Assembly: GCA_026537415.1 (NCBI GenBank)
Contig: JAFNMF010000030.1
Coordinates: 248,001-312,000 of the forward strand
DNA from: Acetobacteraceae bacterium B3987
Lineage (GTDB): Bacteria; Pseudomonadota; Alphaproteobacteria; Acetobacterales; Acetobacteraceae
Direction: 5' to 3'
Length of the DNA: 64,000 bases
A model generated the notes under the pieces. It saw only the letters and a program-made list of their open reading frames with translations. It was not told the origin of the DNA and searched no databases. Positions 3,347 through 15,345 of the stretch are shown here, piece by piece. How positions within the stretch are numbered: the stretch's first letter is position 1; each line of letters opens with the position of its first letter. Position numbers and translations under genes: made by a program.

Positions 3347-4303
3347 ATGCCCTGCAACCAGCTTTCCGCCCTTCAGGCAGCCGTCAGCCGCCATTGCCCG
3401 GAGAAAGTCACGCACACGGCTTTCGACTTCCTGACCCTCTACCGCACCGAAACTGTCACCGACCCTGTTCTGGTCGTTTACGAACCCCGCATCTATATCG
3501 TCGTGCAGGGGCAGAAAATCCTTCACCTGCACGACCAGCCCCTCCCCTATGGTGAAGGCCAGTATCTGATCTCCACACTGGACCTTCCCGTCTCTGGTCA
3601 GATCACCCATGCTTCGGCACAGACTCCCTATCTGGCCCTGTGCATCAGCTTTTCCTCCTCGGAAATGGAGCAGCTTCTCTGGGAGAGCCAGTCCGCCATC
3701 AGCCGTCAGGCCCGGAAACAGGCCCTCCGGAAAGAAACCGGCTCCCCCATCACTGCCATGGGCGTAAGCCAGATTACCGACGAACTTCTTGATGCCCTTC
3801 TGCGTCTGGTCGGGCTGCTCGACAGAGAAGGCGGTCAGACATTTCTGGCCCAGCTCTACAAAAAGGAACTTCTCTATCTCTTTCTTCATGGTCAGCAAGG
3901 CCATGTCCTTCAGGAAACAGCCCATGGGAAAAGTGATCTCTCCCATATCAACCGGGCCATCAGCCATATCCGACGCCATTTTCAGGAACGGTTCGAAATC
4001 AGCACACTGGTGAAGATCGCCGGAATGGGGCAATCCAGCTTCTATAAACGCTTCGGGGAGCTGACCGGCATGACACCCGTGCAGTACCGCACGAAGCTGC
4101 GTCTTCAGGAAGCCCGCCGCCTCATGGTGCATGAGGAGATGAAGGCTGCCAGTGCGGGCTTTCAGGTCGGCTATGACAGCCCTTCCCAGTTCAGCCGGGA
4201 TTACAGGAAGACTTTTGGACGCCCGCCACAGGCAGACCTCCGCTGCATCCGCAGCATGGGCGTGGAGACCTACAAGCAGCAGCATGAAGATGTCTGGTTC
4301 TGA
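3347..4303 (+). CDS. AraC-family transcriptional regulator (YqhC-like)
   Basis: Transcription factor of 318 residues. The N-terminal half resembles the AraC_N domain found in YqhC-type regulators (YEPRIYIVVQGQK, then GEGQYLISTLDLPVSGQI). The C-terminal third holds two helix-turn-helix motifs (ISTLVKIAGMGQSSFYKRF and SAGFQVGYDSPSQFSRDY). A strong ribosome site, gggagg, precedes the ATG by 8 bases. It sits between an MdaB-like reductase and a zinc alcohol dehydrogenase on the same strand. In E. coli the related YqhC activates aldehyde reductase genes, so control of one or both neighbours is a reasonable inference. Confidence 0.85.
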   Translation: MPCNQLSALQAAVSRHCPEKVTHTAFDFLTLYRTETVTDPVLVVYEPRIYIVVQGQKILHLHDQPLPYGEGQYLISTLDLPVSGQITHASAQTPYLALCISFSSSEMEQLLWESQSAISRQARKQALRKETGSPITAMGVSQITDELLDALLRLVGLLDREGGQTFLAQLYKKELLYLFLHGQQGHVLQETAHGKSDLSHINRAISHIRRHFQERFEISTLVKIAGMGQSSFYKRFGELTGMTPVQYRTKLRLQEARRLMVHEEMKAASAGFQVGYDSPSQFSRDYRKTFGRPPQADLRCIRSMGVETYKQQHEDVWF

Positions 4304-4387
4304 TCTGCATCATTGAACAGAACGTGAACAGGCCATAGGCTTGTATCTGGTTCATATCCCGCCACTGTTCCAGAAAAGGATGATCCC

Positions 4388-5437
4388 ATGCGTACCATTG
4401 GCTTTGCCTGCAACTCCGCCGAGGAAGACCTCGCCCCCTTCCATTTCGACCGCCGCAATCCACGCGCCAACGATGTGGTGATGGAGATTCTCTATTGCGG
4501 TGTCTGCCACTCCGACCTGCACTGGGCACGCAATGACTGGGGCCAGACATGCTATCCCACCATTCCGGGCCATGAGATCGTGGGCCGTGTCATTGAGGCA
4601 GGGCCGGACGTCACCCGCCACAAGGTCGGAGATATCGTCGCCGTAGGCTGCATGGTGGATAGCTGCCAGACATGCGACCAGTGCCGCAGGGGTGAAGAAC
4701 AGTACTGCCGTGACGGCATGAACGGCACTTATGGCGGTTTTGACGTTGTCGAAAAGACTCCCAACATGGGCGGCTATTCCAAGCATCTGGTCGTCCGGCA
4801 GGAATTTGCCCTGAAGATGCCGGAAGGGCTGGATATCTCCAAAGCGGCACCGCTGCTCTGTGCCGGTGTCACTACATGGTCACCGCTGCGCACATGGCAG
4901 GCTGGACCGGGCAAACGTGTTGCTGTCATCGGTCTTGGCGGGCTGGGCCAGATGGCTGTCAAGCTGGCTGTTGCCCTTGGGGCAGAAGTCACCGTCATTT
5001 CCCGCAGTGACAGGAAGAAGCAGGAAGCCCTCTCCCTCGGAGCCGACCGGCTTCTGGCGTCCAGCAATGAAAAGGCCATGCAGGACGCCGCAGACAGCTT
5101 CGACCTCATCATCGACACCGTACCGGTGGAACATGACATCACCCCCTATCTTCCCCTGCTGGATGTAGACGGGACGATTACCATGGTCGGCCAGATCGGC
5201 CCGATGCCACAAAGCACCAGCCTGCCGCTAATCTATGGCCGCCGCCGCATTGCCGGGTCCCTCATCGGGGGTATTCGTGAGACGCAGGAGCTTCTGGATT
5301 TCTGCGCCCGCAAGAACATCCTGCCTGACACGAAGACCATCGCCATGCAGGACATCAACAAGGCTTTCGAACAGCTGCAGCAGGGCGATTCACACTACCG
5401 CTTTGTCATCGACATGAGCACGCTGAAAGCCAACTGA
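4388..5437 (+). CDS. Zinc-dependent NAD(P) alcohol dehydrogenase / aldehyde reductase (YahK-like)
   Basis: Medium-chain dehydrogenase of 349 residues, close in layout to YahK/Ahr and cinnamyl-alcohol dehydrogenases, which mainly reduce aldehydes with NADPH. Catalytic zinc ligands are visible (Cys40 in CGVCHSD and His62-Glu63 in GHE), as are four structural-zinc cysteines (CQTCDQCRRGEEQYC). The Rossmann glycine motif is GLGGLG in the central domain. The ribosome site aaaagga lies 7 bases before the ATG. The gene follows the AraC regulator by 84 bases and is likely under its control. The physiological substrate cannot be read from sequence. Confidence 0.88.
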   Translation: MRTIGFACNSAEEDLAPFHFDRRNPRANDVVMEILYCGVCHSDLHWARNDWGQTCYPTIPGHEIVGRVIEAGPDVTRHKVGDIVAVGCMVDSCQTCDQCRRGEEQYCRDGMNGTYGGFDVVEKTPNMGGYSKHLVVRQEFALKMPEGLDISKAAPLLCAGVTTWSPLRTWQAGPGKRVAVIGLGGLGQMAVKLAVALGAEVTVISRSDRKKQEALSLGADRLLASSNEKAMQDAADSFDLIIDTVPVEHDITPYLPLLDVDGTITMVGQIGPMPQSTSLPLIYGRRRIAGSLIGGIRETQELLDFCARKNILPDTKTIAMQDINKAFEQLQQGDSHYRFVIDMSTLKAN

Positions 5438-5452
5438 GCCTTCAGGGCACCT

Positions 5453-5474
5453 GCCCCACCTCATACGGTGGGGC
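5453..5474. terminator. GC-rich hairpin between convergent genes
   Basis: Perfect 8-bp inverted repeat gccccacc / ggtggggc with a 6-base loop lies between the convergent alcohol dehydrogenase and UvrA-like genes. No T-tract follows on either strand, so terminator function is uncertain. Confidence 0.4.
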
Positions 5475-5482
5475 GAACCATG

Positions 5483-8041
5483 TCACGCTCCGGCCAGAAC
5501 CTCTTTCAGGTAAGGCCCGGTGCGGCTGGCCGGATTCCGGGCCACTTCTTCCGGCGGACCAGAGGCAATGATCTGCCCGCCTTTCTCCCCGCTGCCGGGG
5601 CCAATATCAATCACCCAGTCGCTCGCCGCTGCAACACGCATGTTGTGTTCAGTCACGACCACGCTATGCCCCTGCTCCACCAGTGTCTGAAGCTGCCCCA
5701 GAAGCCTGTCCGTATCAGAGGGATGCAGGCCGGTCGTTGGTTCATCCAGAATATAAAGCATGGGAGCTGGCCGCCGCTTCTGTAACTCCGTTGCCAGTTT
5801 GAGACGTTGTGCCTCACCGCCCGAGAGTTCCGGTGCAGGCTGACCAAGACGGAGATAACCCAGCCCGGACTGTTCCAGCGTTTCCAGCCCACGGGCCAGT
5901 GCGCCTTCACCAGCAAAGAAAGTGCAGGCTTCCTCCACCGTCATGGCCAGCACATCAGCGATGTTTTTCTCCCGCAGCGTGATGGCCAGCACCTCATCCT
6001 TATAGCGTGCCCCGTGACAGACCGGGCAGGGAGCCTCCACACCGGGCATGAAGAGCAGCCCGACCGAGACTGTTCCCAGCCCCTCGCAATGCGGGCAACG
6101 CCCTTTGGCGACATTGAAACTGAAGCAGCTTTCATCCAGTTTTGCCTTACGGGCTGCCTCCGTTGCAGCAAAGAGCCTGCGTATCTGATCGAAAATACCC
6201 GTATAGGTCGCCAGATTGGAGCGTGATGTCCGCCCGATGGGCTTCTGCGTGATGATGGACAGACGGCGCACATGCTCCAGCCCTGCCGCGATGCGCCCTT
6301 CCGGCTGGGCATCTACCGCCTCGCCAGCCAGCGGTGTGGTGTCTTCATCATCCTGCGGTTCGTCCGCTTCTTCGATCTTCTGCCCCAGAGCACGCCCCAC
6401 CAGACTTACCAGAGCCTGACTGATAAGGCTGGACTTGCCAGAGCCTGAAACACCCGTCACGCTCACCAGCACACCCAGCGGCAGCTTCAGGGACAGAGTC
6501 TGCATGTTCCGCCATGTAATGCCGTCCATCTGGAGCCACCGCTCCACCTGTCTGACAGAATTGCGTTCCAGAGGGGGCGGGGCAAACAGGTAAGGCCGTG
6601 TGCGGGAGGCTTCCACCTGCTTCAGCCCTTCTGGCGGACCGCTATAGAGCACCTGCCCACCATGACTGCCTGCGCCGGGGCCAATATCCACCAGCCAGTC
6701 CGCCCGCCGCATGACAACGGGATCATGCTCCACCACCAGCAGAGAATTCCCAGCCCTGGGCAGACGCCCCAGCACGTTCAGCAGGGCTTCAATATCCGCT
6801 GGATGGAGTCCGGCAGCAGGTTCATCCAGCACATAGGCCACACCGAACAGGGCAGAATGAACCTGCGTCCCCAGCCGGAGCCGCTGATATTCACCGGGAG
6901 AGAGGCTGTCCACGGTCCGGTCCGTCTGGAGATAACCCAGCCCCAGTTCTAGCAGAATCTCCAGCCGCCGGAGCAGGGCCGTACCGATTTCCTCAATCAC
7001 ACGCCCCTGCGCATCAACCCGCTGTTCCCCTACCAGCTGATCTTTCAGCACGGCATGGAGCTGTTCCAGCGGCAGATGGGACAGAGCGGCAATGTTCTGC
7101 CCTGCAAAACGCACGGCCAGAGCTTCAGGTTTCAGGCGGGCACCGTGACAGACCGGGCAGCGTGTTGCCTGCATGAAGGTCGCCGCACGGGCACGCATCT
7201 TCGCACTCTTGGAGCCGTGGAAACTCTGCATCACATGACGGCGTGCGCTGGCGAAGGTACCCTGATAGGTCGCCGGTTCTCCCCGCTTCATGGCCGCCTG
7301 ACTCTCAGCGTAATTCAGCCCCCGATAGATCGGCTCTGTCGGGGTTTCATCCGTATACAGAATCCAGTCCCGGGTTTCTTTGGGCAGGTCCTTCCAGGGT
7401 GTATCCAGATCAACCCCGCGCATCATGAGGATATCCCGCAGATTCTGCCCCTGCCACGCACCGGGCCACGCCGCCACGGCTTTTTCCCGCAGGGTCAGGG
7501 CCGGGTCGGGCACCATTTTTTCTTCCACGACATCATAGAGCCATCCGGTACCCTGACAGCGTGGACAGGCCCCCTGCGGCGTATTAGCGGAGAAATCGTC
7601 ACTCTCCAGCATGGACGCACCGGCTGGAGAGGTTCCTGCCCGGGAATAAAGCATACGCAGCAGATTGGAGAGGGTTGTCACACTCCCCACGGAAGAGCGA
7701 CTGCTCGTTCCCGCCTGCTGCTGAAGGGCAATGACGGGCGGCAGACCTTCAATATTACGGATTTTAGGTGGTGGAAGCTGGTGGAACAGCCGCCGTGCAT
7801 AGGGAGCAACCGTTTCCAGATACCGCCTCTGCGCCTCCGCATAGAGCGTCCCGAATGCCAGCGAGGACTTGCCCGACCCGGATACACCGGTAAACACCAC
7901 CAGACAGCCCCGTGGCACCTCCAGTGAAACATCCTTCAGATTATGCTCCTGTGCGCCTTCTATGCGGATCATGCCCTGCTGCTCCGTCTTATGGCTTTCC
8001 GAGAGACTGACATGATGATCTGATGATGACGTTCCGGCCAT
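5483..8041 (-). CDS. UvrA-like excinuclease ABC ATPase (UvrA2 type)
   Basis: ATPase of the UvrA family, 852 residues, shorter than housekeeping UvrA (about 940). It carries two ABC modules with Walker A motifs (GVSGSGKSS in each half) and signature motifs SLSPGEYQRL and LSGGEAQRL. It also has the CxxC zinc-finger pairs typical of UvrA (CPRCQGTG, CPVCHGARLK, CPHCEGLG, CPVCHGARY). The insertion between the first Walker A and the first signature is compact, as in UvrA2 proteins linked to DNA-damage or drug tolerance. The ATG at 8041 has gggagg 5 bases upstream. The gene stands alone, divergent from the KAP NTPase. The housekeeping uvrA is not in this window. Confidence 0.88.
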   Translation of the reverse strand: MAGTSSSDHHVSLSESHKTEQQGMIRIEGAQEHNLKDVSLEVPRGCLVVFTGVSGSGKSSLAFGTLYAEAQRRYLETVAPYARRLFHQLPPPKIRNIEGLPPVIALQQQAGTSSRSSVGSVTTLSNLLRMLYSRAGTSPAGASMLESDDFSANTPQGACPRCQGTGWLYDVVEEKMVPDPALTLREKAVAAWPGAWQGQNLRDILMMRGVDLDTPWKDLPKETRDWILYTDETPTEPIYRGLNYAESQAAMKRGEPATYQGTFASARRHVMQSFHGSKSAKMRARAATFMQATRCPVCHGARLKPEALAVRFAGQNIAALSHLPLEQLHAVLKDQLVGEQRVDAQGRVIEEIGTALLRRLEILLELGLGYLQTDRTVDSLSPGEYQRLRLGTQVHSALFGVAYVLDEPAAGLHPADIEALLNVLGRLPRAGNSLLVVEHDPVVMRRADWLVDIGPGAGSHGGQVLYSGPPEGLKQVEASRTRPYLFAPPPLERNSVRQVERWLQMDGITWRNMQTLSLKLPLGVLVSVTGVSGSGKSSLISQALVSLVGRALGQKIEEADEPQDDEDTTPLAGEAVDAQPEGRIAAGLEHVRRLSIITQKPIGRTSRSNLATYTGIFDQIRRLFAATEAARKAKLDESCFSFNVAKGRCPHCEGLGTVSVGLLFMPGVEAPCPVCHGARYKDEVLAITLREKNIADVLAMTVEEACTFFAGEGALARGLETLEQSGLGYLRLGQPAPELSGGEAQRLKLATELQKRRPAPMLYILDEPTTGLHPSDTDRLLGQLQTLVEQGHSVVVTEHNMRVAAASDWVIDIGPGSGEKGGQIIASGPPEEVARNPASRTGPYLKEVLAGA

Positions 8042-8200
8042 GACAGCCTCCCAACCCTTCGCTAACAGAGTGGAAAGGTTAGCATATCTTATACCAGCGT
8101 CATGCCTGCAAAATTCCATCCTTCCCCATAGGCAGACGACTTCCCAACCGGTATTCAAGAAAGGGAAATAACGTCCGCACAGTGAGAAAGTACCCCTGAA

Positions 8201-10081
8201 ATGGCTGAAAATTACAAATGGGCAGGCCCGAATGCAAAAGTAGCCAAGGTACTTGATAAATACTGCTATGGAACCAGCAAACCTCCCTTCGCCCTGATGC
8301 TGGATGGCGCATGGGGCTGCGGCAAGACATGGTTCATAAAACGCTTTTTTGAAGAAAAGAAAAAGAATCGTGCCTCAGACAATGAACTGAACATGATCTA
8401 TGTATCCCTCTACGGGATTCAGAATGCTGAAGAAATTACCAAAGCCATCTATACAGCCATACACCCCATACTGGGAGGCAAGGTCGGAGAACTCGGAAAA
8501 ACCATTTTCAAAGGGCTACTGAAAAGTACATTGAAGATTGACCTTCATCACCTGAAAGACGAAAATGCTGATCTATCAGTTGTTCTAGGACTTTCTGACA
8601 TCGAAGGAAAGAAAAACGAGATATTCAGAAATCGCATTCTGGTCTTTGATGATGTGGAACGTGCAAAAATGCCCGTATCTAACATACTGGCCCTCGTACA
8701 GCCTTTGGTAGAATCCCACGAAGACCGTGTCATTCTTGTTGCTAATGAAAAAGAAATTGCTACTGACGACCCAGCAGAAAAAGATCGCTATAAACGTATA
8801 AAAGAAAAGACGGTTTATCTAACGTTATGCGTCACTCCTGACAGGAAAAACTACTTTAAATACGAAGTAAAAAATGAAAAAAGTAATGAATTTAATAAAT
8901 TCCTACTGGATAACGAAAATGAAATATTATCTTTTATGCATGGATCGAACCTCACCAATATAAGAATTATATACTTTTGTATGCATTTCGGAAAGGAAAT
9001 ATTCCTATTCCTAAAAGATGATTTTAGCCATATAGAACATAACGAAAAATTTCTAAAGATTCTTTATATTCTTTTTGGAACAATTATTGAAAATTATATT
9101 TTCAATAGGGGACCAGAAGAATTCGAAGAAATTTTTATATCTGGACTAATAAATCATCATGGAAAAAATACAGAAGAAGAAAAACAATATAATAAAATAA
9201 AAAACTTACCCCATTTTAAAGAAATGATGTTGTATCGTAACTTAACTTTAGAATTTTACAAATTTATAAAAAATGGAACATTCAATAAAGAAAATATCCT
9301 TAAAGAAATAAGGATCATATTCTATCTTGAGCATCAAGTATTCTGGAAAGATATAATCTTTTACAAATATTTTAAAAATATCAGAGAATCAGGTTATAAT
9401 TTAATAGAAAAATTTATTTATAATTTTAATAATGAAGAATTATCCAATGATGGAGATGTTCTTCATGTATGTGGTTTATACATCATGCTTTATAAAATAG
9501 GGTTCGAAGCCATAAAATATAAAGACCCTATTAATGTATTGATGGAATACATCAAAAAATATTTTGAAAATCTCGCATTCCACAACGAACTTCTAGAGTA
9601 CTCATCCAGCCTCTATAGAGAAAACCATGCACACGGCTATATGTATATGGAACATGATACAGACGAATTCATTACAATTAAGAATTTTTTCCTAGAAGAG
9701 AAAGAAAGATTTCTAGAAAGAAATATATATTTATATATTGAAAACATAACAGAGAATGGAACTCTGATAACTTCAATAGAAAAAGACCCTTATAAATTGA
9801 ATTATCTAAATAACAACCCATATCTTCATAAAATTAACCTGGAATCTTTCATAAAAAACCTTGAAGAATATACTCCTGCCTCACAGTACGCCCTCCTTTC
9901 AAAACTCAGCTACCGATTCCAACAAGCTAAAAATGAATCCAGCCCATTATCACCCGAAAAAGAATGGTTCGAACGACTTATCCAATACTTTGAAAAGGAA
10001 ATCAGTAGTACTGACAACAATCCTCTCTACAAAGACGTACTACACAGCAATATCAAAGCCCTACAAGGACAGGCTCTCTAG
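8201..10081 (+). CDS. KAP-type P-loop NTPase, AT-rich accessory gene
   Basis: Protein of 626 residues with an N-terminal P-loop domain: Walker A GAWGCGKT at residues 36-43, a strand VSLYGI near 68-73, and a Walker B-like LVFDDVER around 147-154, as in KAP-family NTPases. A sensor-like LVANEKEI follows. Residues from about 210 onward are rich in Lys, Asn, Ile, Glu and Phe, and I recognise no domain in them; no clear membrane segment is seen. Base composition is far from that of its neighbours (15 G+C of 60 at 9061-9120). It lies alone between a UvrA-like gene and the 3' end of tRNA-Tyr, a usual entry point for islands. Defence or stress functions are known for some KAP proteins, but its role here is unknown. 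Confidence 0.75.
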   Translation: MAENYKWAGPNAKVAKVLDKYCYGTSKPPFALMLDGAWGCGKTWFIKRFFEEKKKNRASDNELNMIYVSLYGIQNAEEITKAIYTAIHPILGGKVGELGKTIFKGLLKSTLKIDLHHLKDENADLSVVLGLSDIEGKKNEIFRNRILVFDDVERAKMPVSNILALVQPLVESHEDRVILVANEKEIATDDPAEKDRYKRIKEKTVYLTLCVTPDRKNYFKYEVKNEKSNEFNKFLLDNENEILSFMHGSNLTNIRIIYFCMHFGKEIFLFLKDDFSHIEHNEKFLKILYILFGTIIENYIFNRGPEEFEEIFISGLINHHGKNTEEEKQYNKIKNLPHFKEMMLYRNLTLEFYKFIKNGTFNKENILKEIRIIFYLEHQVFWKDIIFYKYFKNIRESGYNLIEKFIYNFNNEELSNDGDVLHVCGLYIMLYKIGFEAIKYKDPINVLMEYIKKYFENLAFHNELLEYSSSLYRENHAHGYMYMEHDTDEFITIKNFFLEEKERFLERNIYLYIENITENGTLITSIEKDPYKLNYLNNNPYLHKINLESFIKNLEEYTPASQYALLSKLSYRFQQAKNESSPLSPEKEWFERLIQYFEKEISSTDNNPLYKDVLHSNIKALQGQAL

Positions 10082-10112
10082 CAAGAAAACAAATTTTCAG
10101 GAAAAAACCACC

Positions 10113-10198
10113 TGGTGGAGGGGGTTGGATTCGAACCAACGTAGGCGTACGCCAGCGGATTTACAGTCCGCCCCCTTTAGCCACTCGGGCACCCCTCC
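10113..10198 (-). tRNA. tRNA-Tyr (anticodon GTA)
   Basis: Read on the minus strand, the acceptor stem GGAGGGG/CCCCTCC, the anticodon loop ctGTAaa, a long (class II) variable arm and the T loop GGTTCGAATCC are all present. The 3' CCA is encoded at 10113-10115. The 3' end faces the AT-rich KAP gene. I found no second copy of its 3' end on the far side of that gene. Confidence 0.95.
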
Positions 10199-10273
10199 GA
10201 ACTCAGGATGTGCGTGTGATAATACGCATTTCTTACTATGTCAATGCGATCAAGAAAGATTATACAAAGGATT

Positions 10274-11077
10274 ATGGCTAGAAAATCATCCTCCCGCCGT
10301 GTGGCCCTGCCCGAGGCGCAGAATCTCTCCCGCAACCGTTCCCGTCGCAGCACGACCAAACACGGAGCCCCCGCCACTGGCAAAGGCTACTGGATATACG
10401 GTCAACATGCCGTAGAGGCTGCCCTCCTGAATCCGGCTCGGGTCATCTACAGCCTTCTGGCTACAAAAGAAGCTGCCGGCTCCCTTCCTGAAACAACGCA
10501 TCAGCCCCGCATTGTCAGCCGGGAAGAGCTGGATGCCCTCTGCGGCAAGGACGCCGTGCATCAGGGTGTCTGCCTGAATGTCGAACCGCTGGATAACCCC
10601 GCCCTCGCAGATGTCATCGACCGGCCCGGCCCCATTCTGGTGCTGGATCAGGTAACGGACCCCCGCAATATCGGGGCCATCCTGCGCTCAGCCGCTGCTT
10701 TCGGAGCCGCAGCCCTTCTGGTGCAGGACCGTCACACGCCCGATGAAACCGGTACCATGGCCAAGGCGGCTTCCGGCGGGCTGGATATCGTGCCCATCAT
10801 CCGGGAAACCAACATCTCCCGTGCGTTGCAGGGACTTCAGAAGGCCGGATTCTGGGTCGTGGGACTGGATGCAGGCGGGACAAGGCTGGACCGCAACCAG
10901 CTTGGCGAACGCCGTGTCGCTCTGGTTCTGGGAGCCGAAGGAGCCGGTCTACGCCGCCTGACACGGGAAACCTGCGATGAAATCGCCTCAATCTACATGT
11001 CCGGTCCAATGGAGAGCCTGAACGTCTCCAACGCCTCCGCCGTGGCCCTGTACGAGCTGACCCGCCCGCTGGACTGA
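10274..11077 (+). CDS. rlmB: TrmH/RlmB-family 2'-O-ribose RNA methyltransferase
   Basis: SPOUT methyltransferase of 267 residues. After a basic N-terminal tail comes the substrate-binding domain beginning YWIYGQHAVEAALLNP, then the trefoil-knot domain with motif 1 (DQVTDPRNIGAILRSAAAFGA), motif 2 (ALVLGAEGAGL) and motif 3 (MESLNVSNASAVALYE). By family it most likely methylates Gm2251 of 23S rRNA using S-adenosylmethionine, though other TrmH-type targets are possible. I prefer the ATG at 10274, preceded closely by aaagga, over the upstream in-frame ATG at 10238, which has no ribosome site. It lies just after tRNA-Tyr on the opposite strand. Confidence 0.88.
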   Translation: MARKSSSRRVALPEAQNLSRNRSRRSTTKHGAPATGKGYWIYGQHAVEAALLNPARVIYSLLATKEAAGSLPETTHQPRIVSREELDALCGKDAVHQGVCLNVEPLDNPALADVIDRPGPILVLDQVTDPRNIGAILRSAAAFGAAALLVQDRHTPDETGTMAKAASGGLDIVPIIRETNISRALQGLQKAGFWVVGLDAGGTRLDRNQLGERRVALVLGAEGAGLRRLTRETCDEIASIYMSGPMESLNVSNASAVALYELTRPLD

Positions 11078-11091
11078 CACTCGCATGAAAA

Positions 11092-11134
11092 TGGGGTGGG
11101 ACCGGAAGCACCAGTCACCACCCCGCCCTCAGGC
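11092..11134. terminator. Hairpin between convergent rlmB and old yellow enzyme genes
   Basis: Interrupted inverted repeat (ggggtg...cacccc with further pairs inside) lies between two convergent genes. On the minus strand it is followed by ATTTTC. It could end transcription in one or both directions. Confidence 0.4.
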
Positions 11135-11149
11135 GATATTATCACCCCA

Positions 11150-12235
11150 TCACTTGGCGAACGGATAATCCGTGTAACCCTTGGCTCCAATCGGGCCATA
11201 CCATGTTGCCATATCATCATCCTGAAGCGGCAGATCATCCTTCAGGCGGCGCACGAGGTCAGGATTGGCGATGTAGGCACGACCAAAACTGATGGCATCA
11301 GCCTTTCCTGCCTCTACGGCTTTCAGGGCCTCATCCCGTGTATATTCCTGATTCAGCACCAGCGGACGGGTGAAAACCTTGCGAATTTCCGGGGACAGTT
11401 TGGGCTGGTCGGTAGCACCACCAAAAGTGAACGTACTGGACGGGTTGGATTCACGCAGCTCCAGCCATGCCACACCCAGATCATTCAGCATCTTTGCCGC
11501 CGGGATAAAAACAGCCTCCGGATTGCTGTCCACCGTACCCTGCACTTCCCCATTGGGAGACAGACGGACACCAACATGCTCGGCACCCACTTCCTTGATG
11601 ACAGCTTCCGTCACTTCACGCAGCAGACGCAGACGGTTCTCGACAGACCCGCCATACGCATCCGTACGGTGGTTGGTACCATCCCGCAGGAACTCATCCA
11701 GCAGATAACCGTTGGCAGAGTGAATCTGAACACCGTCAAAGCCAGCTTTCATCGCATTGCGTGCTGCCTTGACGTAGCTTTCCACGATCCCCGGAATCTC
11801 ATCCAGACGCAGCGCACGGGCTTCCTCATAGGACGCCTTGCCGTCATATGTGTGAATATGCCCCGGTGCCGTAGAGGGAGACGGAGCCACCGGCTGCTCC
11901 CCGGTCGTGGAGGAATGAACCATCCGTCCCATATGCCAGAGCTGGCAGACGATTTTCCCACCCTTCTCATGCACGGCATCCGTTACGGTCTTCCAGCCTG
12001 CCATCTGAGCATCATTCCAGATGCCTGTAGCATAAGCCCAGCCTAGCCCCTGACGGGAAATACCAACAGCCTCAGAAATAATCAGCCCGGCGGTAGCCCG
12101 CTGGCCGTAATACTCCGCCATGATTGGTGTCGGGACAGCATCCTTGCCCGCCCGTGCCCGTGTGAGCGGTGCCATAACGACACGATTAGCCGCCTTAATG
12201 GCACCAAAAGAAATGGGATCAAAAAGTGTTGGCAT
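11150..12235 (-). CDS. Old yellow enzyme family ene-reductase (NemA-like)
   Basis: FMN-dependent NAD(P)H oxidoreductase of 361 residues that reduces activated C=C bonds and often electrophiles such as N-ethylmaleimide or nitro compounds. Family features run the whole length: the start FDPISFGAIKAANRVVMAPLTRAR, the middle GFDGVQIHSANGYLLDEFL followed by DAYGGSVENR, and the end ISFGRAYIANPDL. The ATG at 12235 has gaggag about 7 bases upstream. It is divergent from an ArsR-family regulator with an inverted repeat between them, so an electrophile-responsive repressor/reductase pair is likely. Confidence 0.9.
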   Translation of the reverse strand: MPTLFDPISFGAIKAANRVVMAPLTRARAGKDAVPTPIMAEYYGQRATAGLIISEAVGISRQGLGWAYATGIWNDAQMAGWKTVTDAVHEKGGKIVCQLWHMGRMVHSSTTGEQPVAPSPSTAPGHIHTYDGKASYEEARALRLDEIPGIVESYVKAARNAMKAGFDGVQIHSANGYLLDEFLRDGTNHRTDAYGGSVENRLRLLREVTEAVIKEVGAEHVGVRLSPNGEVQGTVDSNPEAVFIPAAKMLNDLGVAWLELRESNPSSTFTFGGATDQPKLSPEIRKVFTRPLVLNQEYTRDEALKAVEAGKADAISFGRAYIANPDLVRRLKDDLPLQDDDMATWYGPIGAKGYTDYPFAK

Positions 12236-12326
12236 GGTTTTCTCCTCAAAAACATGGCCAGATAACCTAGGACAAAAAACAGAGCAGGCGTCCCTGTCCT
12301 CTTCCTCAAGGGCTAACACTTCCTTT

Positions 12327-12363
12327 TTGTTCTATCAATATGGAACAATAAAATTTGTTCTAT
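12327..12363. promoter_or_regulatory. Candidate operator between old yellow enzyme and ArsR genes
   Basis: An inverted repeat TTGTTC-N10-GAACAA lies at 12327-12348, and the half-site TTGTTCTAT recurs directly at 12355-12363. They lie just upstream of a TTGACA box at 12383 that precedes the regulator gene, and they also lie within the promoter region of the divergent reductase. This placement fits autoregulation and repression by the ArsR protein. Confidence 0.5.
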
Positions 12364-12419
12364 AGGGATAAAACTATAAACCTTGACAAAATACACCCTG
12401 ACTCCCGATACACGTCCTC

Positions 12420-12746
12420 ATGGCTGCGCTGTATCACCATCCCGCCCCGGAAGACATCACCCTCCTGCCTCTATTACGAGCCATAGCGGACCCCGTGCGG
12501 CTGGGCATCATCTGTCATCTGCACAGTCTTAAAGAGGCTAACTGCACGACATTGCTACGAGGGCGACCAAAGTCCAGCATGTCACATCATTTTCAGGTGC
12601 TACGAGAGGCCGGAATCCTCCAAACACGGGTTGAGGGTGTACAACACCGCAACACACTCCGCCTCGACGTGCTGGAAAACCGCTTCCCCGGCCTGATGGT
12701 GTCTATCCTACGCGAATGTCCCACCAATCTACCAGAAGACAGCTGA
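12420..12746 (+). CDS. ArsR-family winged-helix repressor
   Basis: Small DNA-binding protein of 108 residues. The winged helix-turn-helix is clear: LLRAIADPVRLGIICHL, then the recognition region SSMSHHFQVLREAGILQTR and the wing VEGVQHRNTLR. The ELCVCDL metal-binding motif of arsenic and cadmium sensors is absent; only a single Cys lies near the recognition helix and another near the C-terminus. This fits a redox or electrophile sensor better than a metal sensor, though that is inference. It is divergent from the old yellow enzyme gene, the probable target. Confidence 0.82.
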   Translation: MAALYHHPAPEDITLLPLLRAIADPVRLGIICHLHSLKEANCTTLLRGRPKSSMSHHFQVLREAGILQTRVEGVQHRNTLRLDVLENRFPGLMVSILRECPTNLPEDS

Positions 12747-12795
12747 CCCACCGCCAGCTCGTCTTCACCAACCCACCTTCATAGGTCCCGTATCA

Positions 12796-13212
12796 TCACT
12801 GTCCGGCAGGGCCAGCCACTTTCAGCTCTGCCACAAGACGGGCCTGCTCCGGCTGCCAGAGCAGAATACGGGCATTTCCCTGTCCATCCCGCAACGTAAC
12901 GGCCAACGCACCATCTGGACGGGCCGTTACAGCCATGATCTGCTCATCCGCATGGCGGGGCAGCGTCAACAAGGCAGGCCCGGCCAATGATGATGGTCCC
13001 ATCATAGTCTGTGCTGTGGCCGGAGTCGAAGGCGTTGCCGCATGATTCATCATGCGATGAATAATGATTCCTACCAGCAGAACCGTCCCCAGAATAATCA
13101 TCACCCCCATGATGATGACAGCCGCTACCAGAGCCTTGGAGGTACGTGGTGGGTTCGACTCGCTGTTTTGCCCAGCCTCGACTAGATTGGGGCCTATGTC
13201 CGACTCATTCAT
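12796..13212 (-). CDS. DUF6476-like small membrane protein
   Basis: Protein of 138 residues with a hydrophilic N-terminus, one strong membrane segment (VAAVIIMGVMIILGTVLLVGII, about residues 29-50) and a periplasmic tail with LTLPRHADEQIMAVTARPDG and a beta-rich end. The layout matches DUF6476 proteins, which are often encoded beside rluD in alphaproteobacteria; function unknown. The ATG at 13212 has gggagag 9 bases upstream. Its 5' end overlaps that of the divergent rluD by 17 bases, so one of the two starts may be slightly misplaced. Confidence 0.65.
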   Translation of the reverse strand: MNESDIGPNLVEAGQNSESNPPRTSKALVAAVIIMGVMIILGTVLLVGIIIHRMMNHAATPSTPATAQTMMGPSSLAGPALLTLPRHADEQIMAVTARPDGALAVTLRDGQGNARILLWQPEQARLVAELKVAGPAGQ

Positions 13213-14206
13213 TTCCGATTCTCTCCCGGCGGATGCACCCGCACTCTTCTCTTTCACCATCACGCACGAGCAGGCGGGACAACGGGCTGACCGTATGCTG
13301 GCCGATGCCATCGGCACACTATCCCGCTCCCGTGTCAAAGCTCTGATCGAGACAGGGCACCTTACCTGCAACGGCACGGCCCGGCGAGACCCTGCTTTTA
13401 CCCTGCGTGAAGGGATGCAACTAGAATTACGCCTCCCTCCACCAGAACCCGCCCGCCCACAAGCAGAAAGTATCCCTTTAGATATCCTCTTTGAGGATAG
13501 GGACCTTATTGTGCTGGATAAACCGGCCGGACTTGTCGTCCATCCTGCCCCCGGCAATGAAACAGGCACTCTCGTCAACGCTCTTCTGGGGCATTGCGGG
13601 CCGGACTTTAAAGGCATTGGCGGAGAGAAACGCCCCGGCATTGTCCACCGGCTGGACAAGGACACATCCGGTGTGATGGTCGTGGCCAAAACCCCGCTCG
13701 CCCATGAGGCCCTCTCCGAAGCCTTCGCCAACCGCACTATGGAGCGAGCCTATCTTGCTCTGGCATGGGGCCTCCTCCCTCCCTCAGGCGAATTTGAAGG
13801 TGCCATCGGGCGGGACAAACGGGACCGCAAGCGTATGGCTGTTGTCTCCCAAGGCGGCAAACATGCTTTGACACGCTTCACGACGAAAGAGACCTTCCAT
13901 GCTGGTGTATCCCTTGTGGAATGTCGGCTAGCAACCGGGCGGACCCATCAGATCCGTGTCCATCTCTCTCACAACGGACATCCTCTGCTTGGTGACCCGG
14001 TTTATCTGCGTCGTGTACCAGCGGCTGCTCGCAAATTACCCGTAGATGTACGGCATCAGGCCCTCGACTTCCCCCGACAGGCCCTTCATGCCGCCACACT
14101 AGGATTCATTCATCCACGAACAAAGGAAGAATTGCACTTTTCAGCCCCCCTTCCTGACGATCTTCAGAGCCTGATAAAAGCTCTCTCAGAAGGGGAAAGC
14201 ACATAA
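13196..14206 (+). CDS. rluD: 23S rRNA pseudouridine synthase, RluD/RluA family
   Basis: Enzyme of 336 residues that isomerises uridines in RNA. An N-terminal S4-like RNA-binding domain (residues 22-75, with QRADRML and SRSRVKALIETGHL) precedes the catalytic domain. The catalytic Asp154 lies in GIVHRLDKDTSG, followed by RAYLAL and by GRTHQIRVHL. By domain content and length it is the RluD type, which modifies helix 69 of 23S rRNA. The ATG at 13196 has gggg close upstream. It is divergent from the DUF6476-like gene and is followed by rpoH after 218 bases. Confidence 0.88.
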   Translation: MSDSFISDSLPADAPALFSFTITHEQAGQRADRMLADAIGTLSRSRVKALIETGHLTCNGTARRDPAFTLREGMQLELRLPPPEPARPQAESIPLDILFEDRDLIVLDKPAGLVVHPAPGNETGTLVNALLGHCGPDFKGIGGEKRPGIVHRLDKDTSGVMVVAKTPLAHEALSEAFANRTMERAYLALAWGLLPPSGEFEGAIGRDKRDRKRMAVVSQGGKHALTRFTTKETFHAGVSLVECRLATGRTHQIRVHLSHNGHPLLGDPVYLRRVPAAARKLPVDVRHQALDFPRQALHAATLGFIHPRTKEELHFSAPLPDDLQSLIKALSEGEST

Positions 14207-14424
14207 CTTTTTATTAAGTTTGACTTCCTGAATGAATCAATTAGAAAATTATAGGACAAAGAGCGTCCCATAAAGGATGAACATATCTCTATTGCCGTAT
14301 TTGCGATGGAGATGCGAGAAGGCCAGCATTAAGATACGCAAACTGGTCTCATCGTTCCTGTGATGAATGGGCTAGTCCGGTTTGCCTGCCTCTTCATCAG
14401 CCGGGTGCAAGGAGTCGAAATCGT

Positions 14425-15345
14425 ATGAAGTCTCCCTCAACTCTTCCCGCCATCGGTCCAGAGACCAATCTTTCCCGTTATCTTCAGGAAATCCGGCGGT
14501 TCCCCCTCCTCACTTCCGAGCAAGAACTAGCCCTTGCCCGCCGCTGGCGTGACAAGCATGACAGTACAGCCGCTCACGAACTGGTCACATCGCATCTCCG
14601 TCTTGTTGCCAAGATCGCCATGAGCTACCGAGGCTATGGCCTGCCCGTCAGTGAGCTTATCAGCGAGGGCAATATCGGCATGATGCAGGCTGTCCGCCGC
14701 TTCGACCCGGAGCGGGGCTTCCGCTTGGCGACCTATGCCATGTGGTGGATCCGTGCGGCCATTCAGGAATATATCCTTCACAGCTGGTCTCTGGTGAAAA
14801 TGGGCACAACCGCTGCCCAAAAGAAGCTCTTCTTCAATCTCCGCCGCCTCAAGGGGCAGATGCAGGCTTATGAAGAAGGCGACCTTCAGCCGGAGCAGAT
14901 CAACCATATCGCCAAAACGCTTGGTGTGCCGGAGCAGGATGTCATCTCCATGAACCGCCGCCTTACGGCACCAGACCATAGCCTGAATGCTCCGCTGCGT
15001 GTGGATGGGGAACAGGAATGGCAAGACTGGCTGGTGGATCAGAATGACAATCAGGAAGATACGCTAGCCGAGAGCGAAGACATGGCGGGCCGCAAGGCAC
15101 TCCTGACCGAGGCCATGCAGACCCTTAATGAGCGTGAACGCCACATCCTGACGGAACGCCGCCTGAAAGAGGACCCTTCTACACTGGAAGAACTCTCCCA
15201 TCATTATGGCGTCTCCCGTGAACGCATCCGCCAGATTGAAGCCCGTGCCATGGAGAAACTACAAAAGGCTATGGCATCTGCTGTCAGGGAGCGGCGCAAG
15301 GAACAGGGTTTCTCTGATGAGCCGGAAGACAAAGCCAAGACCTGA
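14425..15345 (+). CDS. rpoH: RNA polymerase sigma-32 factor RpoH
   Basis: Heat-shock sigma factor of 306 residues. Region 2 is intact (YGLPVSELISEGNIGMMQAVRRFDP, then LATYAMWWIRAAIQEYI). The RpoH box QKKLFFNLRRLK at residues 132-143 distinguishes it from other group members. Region 4 ends with YGVSRERIRQIEARAMEKL. The start has aaggag 12 bases upstream. A 218-base leader separates it from rluD and may contain its promoter or a thermosensitive structure, but I could not identify one. Alphaproteobacteria may carry several rpoH paralogues. Confidence 0.95.
   Translation: MKSPSTLPAIGPETNLSRYLQEIRRFPLLTSEQELALARRWRDKHDSTAAHELVTSHLRLVAKIAMSYRGYGLPVSELISEGNIGMMQAVRRFDPERGFRLATYAMWWIRAAIQEYILHSWSLVKMGTTAAQKKLFFNLRRLKGQMQAYEEGDLQPEQINHIAKTLGVPEQDVISMNRRLTAPDHSLNAPLRVDGEQEWQDWLVDQNDNQEDTLAESEDMAGRKALLTEAMQTLNERERHILTERRLKEDPSTLEELSHHYGVSRERIRQIEARAMEKLQKAMASAVRERRKEQGFSDEPEDKAKT

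Follow-up and report, generated by a model that had tools for sequence, protein, structure and literature searches.

What is a single, very AT-rich gene doing beside the 3' end of a tRNA gene with GC-rich neighbors, and by what route did it come to lie there? We addressed this question in a window of 64,000 nucleotides from the genome of Acetobacteraceae bacterium B3987 (contig JAFNMF010000030.1, positions 248,001 to 312,000), a strain whose genus we infer to be Bombella, a genus known from honey bees (PMC12282179, a study of its CRISPR-Cas systems). The gene occupies positions 8201..10081 of the window on the plus strand, begins with ATG, and encodes a KAP-type P-loop NTPase of 626 amino acids that PADLOC places in PDC-S49, a candidate single-gene defense system. 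In our judgment, it is likely a stand-alone gene against phages or other mobile elements, housed in a defense hotspot of Bombella. The new parts are the Bombella hotspot, for which no earlier description was found, and the exchange of alleles within it; the KAP gene itself joins a known candidate family.

A preliminary description of this DNA had reported a 626-residue gene carrying the motifs GAWGCGKT and LVFDDVER, and the reading frame and both motifs are present as claimed. The Walker A motif (residues 36–43; 8306..8329, plus strand) has Gly36, Gly39, Gly41, Lys42, and Thr43 invariant in all 33 aligned sequences, and the Walker B motif (residues 147–154; 8639..8662, plus strand) likewise keeps Asp150, Asp151, and Glu153 in 33 of 33. 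Besides the window protein, the alignment holds 32 of the 71 homolog loci; 45 of the 71 were surveyed for it, and 13 were dropped, namely three longer and more distant ones (L081, L083, and L086) and others that were truncated, broken, or nearly identical (e.g., L045, L050, and L063). The contrast in base composition noted earlier also holds: the GC content of the KAP gene is 0.33, the lowest of the 53 nonoverlapping open reading frames (ORFs) of at least 110 amino acids in the window, the other 52 lying between 0.51 and 0.61. In 1-kb steps, GC is 0.27 to 0.29 inside the gene versus 0.48 to 0.63 wherever the gene is not touched. In 150-bp steps along the gene, it starts at 0.48, drops to 0.21 to 0.25 over a large part of the second half, and recovers to 0.43 in the last step; most of the AT-rich stretch thus encodes the C-terminal half. 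The gene is present in a single copy in the host genome (2,043,011 bases, 30 contigs).

Profile searches assign the protein to a defense candidate family. Pfam KAP_NTPase (PF07693) matches residues 13 to 251 (58.6 bits, cut-off 20, E = 8.1e-16), and three PDC-S49 models of PADLOC match with E values of 5.3e-88, 1.9e-82, and 9.1e-62, the best of them spanning residues 10 to 619 of 626. PDC in PADLOC usage stands for "phage defence candidate" (PMC11514479). At E values up to 1, PADLOC returned nothing besides the PDC-S49 models, and NCBIfam returned no match. Membership in this named candidate family goes beyond the preliminary description, as do the variability of the site across the genus and the uneven spread of the AT-richness along the gene. 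No catalytic effector domain (nuclease, deaminase, or TIR) and no transmembrane domain was recognized in the window protein besides the NTPase.

The distribution of the gene is patchy. In a protein search at an E value of 1e-5, relatives were found in 14 of 397 genomes of the family, belonging to seven of 102 genera; profile searches at 1e-30 found it in four of 385 genomes of the class and eight of 398 genomes of the phylum, with 0 of 14 control genomes positive in both. Within the genus, five of 11 genomes have a KAP_NTPase, each in one copy and always at the same site, between a uvrA2-type gene and a tRNA-Tyr gene. The preliminary description had staked its reading on the gene not being conserved genus-wide at this place, and indeed only five of the 11 genomes have it there, one of the copies being broken. 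This broken copy, in G296, is decaying in pieces with stops (L032:2117–4007, the same locus as L050).

Comparing the site across the genus, it becomes clear that the flanks are constant and the contents are not. On the left lies the gene that we presume, with the preliminary description, to be of the uvrA2 type (5483..8158, minus strand), with 87.6 to 94.5% amino acid identity in the nine relatives in which KAP or other cargo adjoins it. On the right lies the tRNA-Tyr gene (anticodon gta; 10113..10198, minus strand), of which all 86 bases are the same in nine relatives and which is the sole Rfam match at the gathering threshold in positions 4000 to 14500. It is followed by an rRNA methyltransferase gene (10238..11077, plus strand) present in 11 of 11 genomes, which we take, from its sequence, to be of the rlmB type. 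The KAP gene and the tRNA gene are convergent, with 31 bp from the KAP stop codon to the tRNA 3' end, in keeping with the earlier report of a gene beside that end, and the interval from uvrA2 to rlmB holds no further ORF of 110 amino acids or more. The uvrA2-type gene possibly starts at ATG 8041 rather than TTG 8158, since in G170, G118, and G211 the alignment of the homolog begins only at residue 39 or 40; the homolog of G032 aligns from residue 1, counter to the ATG 8041 start (window 8041–8158).

Both flanks of the slot could be read in 10 of the 11 genomes; in the remaining one, G350, the contig breaks off within the tRNA gene, and no close uvrA2 was found. An intact KAP gene fills the slot in four of the 10 (the window strain G000, G317, G243, and G273) and the broken one in G296. 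G170 and G211 carry instead a type I restriction-modification system with one further ORF, about 7.7 kb in all; PADLOC matches in G170 are MTase_I (1.8e-181), Specificity_I (6.9e-75), and REase_I (8.3e-178). The cargo of G118 is an HNH nuclease resembling type IV enzymes (mREase_IV, 4e-22, residues 184–276 of 279), and that of G334 is an HD-domain protein (dGTPase, 2.5e-7) together with a nucleotidyltransferase (PDC-M70A, 1e-61). PADLOC and Pfam were run on ten cargo ORFs, and Pfam agrees with PADLOC. In total, nine of the 10 sites that could be read have a defense gene, known or candidate, one of these being broken, and the slot holds four kinds of defense cargo and one kind that was not recognized. 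Because conserved flanks hold differing, mostly defensive cargo across strains, the slot from uvrA2 to tRNA-Tyr and rlmB is a defense hotspot. The comparison of this locus among related strains, which the preliminary description had proposed, thus ended in a variable site with other defense cargo in sister genomes. The main text of the study of Bombella CRISPR-Cas systems is without the words "restriction," "hotspot," "tRNA," and "PADLOC" (PMC12282179).

Apart from the KAP gene, several cargoes deserve a description of their own. The type I systems lie at L028:1305–8649 (G170) and L030:2106–9451 (G211), and the ORF of 358 to 370 amino acids beside hsdM in these two genomes has no PADLOC or Pfam match. 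Their products are 97% (HsdM), 65% (HsdS), and 95% (HsdR) identical; within HsdS, identity is 34% over the first 155 residues and 91% over the rest. Such a split is well known from HsdS proteins in which one recognition half has been exchanged. The AT-rich pair of G334 (L033:6313–8498) is a candidate two-gene defense system. The 3.7-kb stretch of G032 may be cargo of an unrecognized kind.

How, then, is cargo exchanged? Compared with G032, which lacks KAP, the left edge of the variable cargo lies at 8200..8201: positions 7901 to 8200 of the window align with G032 at 84.7%, and homology stops at the KAP start codon. Compared with G170, G211, G118, and G334, homology is lost sooner, at positions 7973 to 8010. 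On the other side, a short AT-rich tail stands beside the tRNA 3' end in nine of the 10 loci, that of G000 included, and is missing in G032, whose cargo meets the tRNA 3' end directly. The preliminary description had placed the gene in a setting of tRNA integration, and had itself noted the lack of an integrase and of a repeat of the tRNA end. Both negatives hold. In the window and nine relatives, the longest exact match to the tRNA 3' half on the left side is at most 10 bases, where shuffled sequences gave means of 9.3 to 9.8 and maxima of 12 to 13; no integrase was found beside the KAP gene among ORFs of at least 110 amino acids, and the Pfam scan of ten cargo ORFs returned none either. Site-specific integration at tRNA-Tyr therefore finds no support in these searches. 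Of the earlier interpretation, horizontal acquisition is upheld by the patchy presence and the divergence of the alleles, and integration at the tRNA gene is not. As there is no tRNA repeat and the flanks are conserved, homologous recombination in these flanks would be the simplest means of exchange, and it probably fits better than tRNA integration.

Elsewhere, the 3' end of tRNA-Tyr has other neighbors. In a genome of another genus (G079, L149:1225–8139), recombinase-like and phage-like ORFs adjoin it, and transposase-like ORFs lie beside it in L148, both as judged from translations only.

These neighbors bear on an alternative, namely that the gene was left behind at a former integration site as cargo of what remains of a phage or phage satellite, for example a superinfection exclusion gene that protects the element and not the host. 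Besides the phage-like ORFs in L149, a virus protein family without an assigned function (phrog_4740 of PHROGs) matches residues 12 to 603 with an E value of 5e-44, KAP genes occur in records of the Campylobacter prophage CJIE4, and three phage-integrase matches were found among 114 neighbors of homologs. However, the site has neither an integrase nor a tRNA repeat, the slot holds restriction-modification and other defense cargo in relatives, and a search of 50,697 phage records returned only five matches, which cover 25 to 44% of the protein. We regard this origin as unlikely.

The alleles of the KAP gene differ from one another far more than their surroundings. Between G317 and G243, the synonymous divergence (dS) is 0.09 in uvrA2 and 0.11 in rlmB, whereas it is 1.64 for residues 1 to 225 and 1.88 for residues 250 to 530 of the KAP gene, and therefore at least one KAP copy has been replaced. 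G273 and G243 carry a common allele (dS = 0.01). Between G000 and G317, dS is 1.35 in uvrA2, 1.30 in rlmB, and 1.03 in KAP residues 1 to 225; over residues 250 to 530, it is saturated, with a nonsynonymous divergence (dN) of 0.83. The corresponding protein identities are 73% in the N-terminal domain, 24% in the middle, and 28% at the end. Six other pairs with 70 to 73% identity in the N-terminal domain retain 55 to 57% in the middle, although these come from five related Acetobacter and Komagataeibacter sequences and amount to few independent comparisons, and four pairs at 74 to 77% retain 49 to 62%. In tree distance, arithmetic on branch lengths gives about 0.46 (N-terminal) and 3.07 (C-terminal) for G000 and G317, a 6.6-fold ratio, compared with about 1.6-fold in two Acetobacter pairs and 1.9-fold between G000 and G273. 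The five Bombella copies fall into four types by their C-terminal part, with at most 33% mutual identity, and three of the types occur in intact copies; N-terminal identity is 56 to 73% among the three intact alleles and 42 to 76% for the pieces of G296.

The two parts of the protein are thus distinct in conservation, and they also differ in the predicted structure. The conserved N-terminal NTPase domain (residues 10–225; 8228..8875, plus strand) largely coincides with the Pfam match and forms the alpha/beta part of the AlphaFold2 model. The variable C-terminal region (residues 226–626; 8876..10078, plus strand), our proposed sensor, has a GC content of 0.21 to 0.43 per 150 bp, and residues 212 to 626 are almost all helical in the model, with a mean confidence score (pLDDT) of 85. 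Between Walker A and Walker B lies a linker (residues 92–141; 8474..8623, plus strand) with pLDDT below 50, yet partly conserved, with KGLLKSTLKIDL. It has no transmembrane helix: the highest Kyte-Doolittle mean over 19 residues is 0.62, and the maximum for the whole window protein is 1.49. Among the 33 aligned homologs, no linker exceeds 0.97, and seven have one window of at least 1.6 elsewhere in the protein.

A side observation concerns the same linker. In 17 of the 33 aligned PDC-S49-type proteins (L054–L079 and others), a motif resembling a calcium loop, DxDxDGxxD, stands between Walker A and Walker B at columns corresponding to window residues 106 to 136 and nowhere else in those proteins. 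It is missing in the window protein and in the Bombella, Acetobacter, and Komagataeibacter set, and it is present in Novacetimonas (L058).

Structural comparison raises a further alternative, a stress or housekeeping AAA+ ATPase, chaperone- or DNA-associated and similar to ORC/Cdc6, that sits at a recombination-prone site by chance. The best structural matches are indeed ORC/Cdc6 and other DNA-bound AAA+ proteins, and the PDB profile matches at E values below 0.01 are two ORC4 sequences only, over 43 profile positions. Against such a role stand a KAP_NTPase in only five of the 11 genus genomes and a relative in only 14 of the 397 family genomes, the replacement of alleles, the decay of one copy, and the lack of an NCBIfam match, which together make a housekeeping function quite improbable. 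With regard to sensor NTPases of the STAND or NLR kind, Foldseek returned NLRP7 (E = 5.8e-4) and NLRC4 (E = 1.9e-3) with query TM-scores of 0.21 and 0.25, respectively, and no NACHT or NB-ARC model was among the Pfam matches at E values up to 1.

In other genera, the homologs have no constant company. When 493 neighboring ORFs of at least 100 amino acids from 45 loci were clustered, no partner gene recurred in a consistent place across genera, although smaller or very diverged partners would escape such clustering. The clusters reflect the synteny of Bombella and of Acinetobacter, in which, for instance, four loci share a gene directly upstream. If the Bombella set is left aside, four loci are the most in which any neighbor family occurs, and those families that do recur mainly follow Acinetobacter synteny or stand in varying places. 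One family is common to a Pseudomonas locus and three of Acinetobacter, though its distance varies, and smaller groups are scattered. Together with the PDC-S49 match, the patchy presence, and the other defense cargo, this lack of a recurring partner bears out, as a prediction, the earlier suggestion of a possible single-gene defense system.

We propose the following model, in which the gene would be kept in the genus-wide hotspot and replaced there, probably through homologous recombination in the flanks. A defense function, the firmest part of the proposal, is quite probable. The N-terminal P-loop domain (residues 1–225) would bind NTP and assemble into a ring or another oligomer, as is reported for QatA and RdrA; by analogy with these proteins, oligomerization is somewhat favored. 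The helical C-terminal region (residues 226–626) may recognize a phage component, and it would be the region most different between strains because of this recognition, a role that is suggested by the pattern of variability and is about as probable as not. Once a component is recognized and NTP is turned over, an effector step would follow that either blocks the phage or halts the cell. Since the protein has no recognized nuclease, deaminase, or TIR domain and none that spans the membrane, the NTPase itself would serve as effector and act on DNA or a host target, perhaps via the stretch that links the two Walker motifs; this last step is a guess, held with little confidence. More broadly, and tentatively, PDC-S49 KAP proteins could be one-protein immune receptors, in which a soluble ring NTPase carries an exchangeable helical C-terminal sensor that is swapped between strains like the HsdS recognition half of G170 and G211, part of the family being tuned by a calcium-loop-like insert that the Bombella, Acetobacter, and Komagataeibacter branch lacks.

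A number of observations weigh against this proposal. A clean swap of the C-terminal module is possible, argued from divergence ratios only. All three topologies fall in the 95% set for both halves of the protein, and the N-terminal tree weakly (65) joins G273, and not G000, with G317. The C-terminal part is less conserved family-wide, pairs at 61 to 63% identity in the N-terminal domain having 33 to 37% in the middle, and one of the four C-terminal types belongs to the broken copy of G296, whose divergence is in part a result of decay. That the topology tests do not reject one tree for both halves, and that the C-terminal part is less conserved in other family members as well, also speaks for plain, fast vertical divergence under relaxed selection, with no exchange of alleles or modules. 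However, the dS values of G317 and G243 (about 0.1 in the flanks and 1.6 to 1.9 in the gene), the 6.6-fold distance ratio of G000 and G317, and the full-length reading frames retained by three of the four alleles render purely vertical descent very improbable. As for defense itself, the 3.7-kb cargo of G032 (L031:1957–5656) is without a recognized defense gene, two scanned ORFs having no PADLOC or Pfam match and four having no PHROGs match. A search for sigma-70-like promoters gave no site ahead of the KAP gene; consensus sites across the region are at chance level (six versus 7.6 expected). The AAA+ fold matches are broad and uninformative on function, and neither the name PDC-S49 nor a phage test of the KAP gene was found in the open-licence literature searched. 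Near homologs in other genera, defense genes are scattered, and many neighbors are housekeeping or metabolic. PADLOC families matched number 71 among 114 neighbors and 15 (10 of them GajB models) among 52 window ORFs, but these are families rather than proteins with matches, the sets differ, and they give no clean enrichment figure; the 114 are those of loci L047 to L079 out of 145, the last 31 being left out. Lastly, QatA, a KAP protein of another system, is dispensable for defense against some phages (PMC13279940).

Through this locus, an orphan gene becomes a candidate immune gene open to experiment. Its natural alleles at a known address, three intact and one broken, have a related NTPase half and very different C-terminal halves, so that a comparison of the intact ones could link the C-terminal half to phage range. 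Moreover, the stretch from uvrA2 to tRNA-Tyr and rlmB is an address at which new Bombella defense genes can be sought, the cargo of G032 included.

Comparing the protein with known systems, PDC-S49 is the closest: the match to all three models is nearly full length, and a single gene and a patchy distribution are found there as in the window. The 33 members are 599 to 705 amino acids long as aligned, and the window protein differs from 17 of them in having no DxDxDGxxD-like loop. PDC-S49 is a profile family for which no published test was found in the open-licence literature. Tmn is reportedly also a single gene. It is a KAP-family NTPase active against phages with two transmembrane domains, and its mechanism is called unexplored (PMC11846954). 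The window protein, in contrast, has no transmembrane domain (hydropathy maximum 1.49) and matched only PDC-S49 models. QatA belongs to a four-gene operon with QatB, QatC, and QatD, whereas the window slot holds a single gene that matched only PDC-S49 models of the PADLOC library, which presumably holds Qat models as well. Mass photometry reportedly suggests that QatA is a heptamer or octamer, and it binds DNA and affects phage range (PMC13279940). KAP NTPases recur in defense, as in Tmn and QatA, and these sources describe their mechanisms as open. RdrA of RADAR, part of a defense complex, forms a heptameric AAA+ ring whose C-terminal layer is helical and which bears an insert near beta-2/beta-3 (PMC9994260). 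In RADAR the deaminase gene for RdrB adjoins RdrA, whereas the window slot is without a second ORF of at least 110 amino acids. As for the site, the core defense hotspots of Pseudomonas aeruginosa likewise consist of fixed core genes around strain-specific defense systems (PMC10250203). Compared with these, the Bombella slot is much smaller (about 1.1–7.7 kb), carries one recognized system per strain, and has other flanks in another host.
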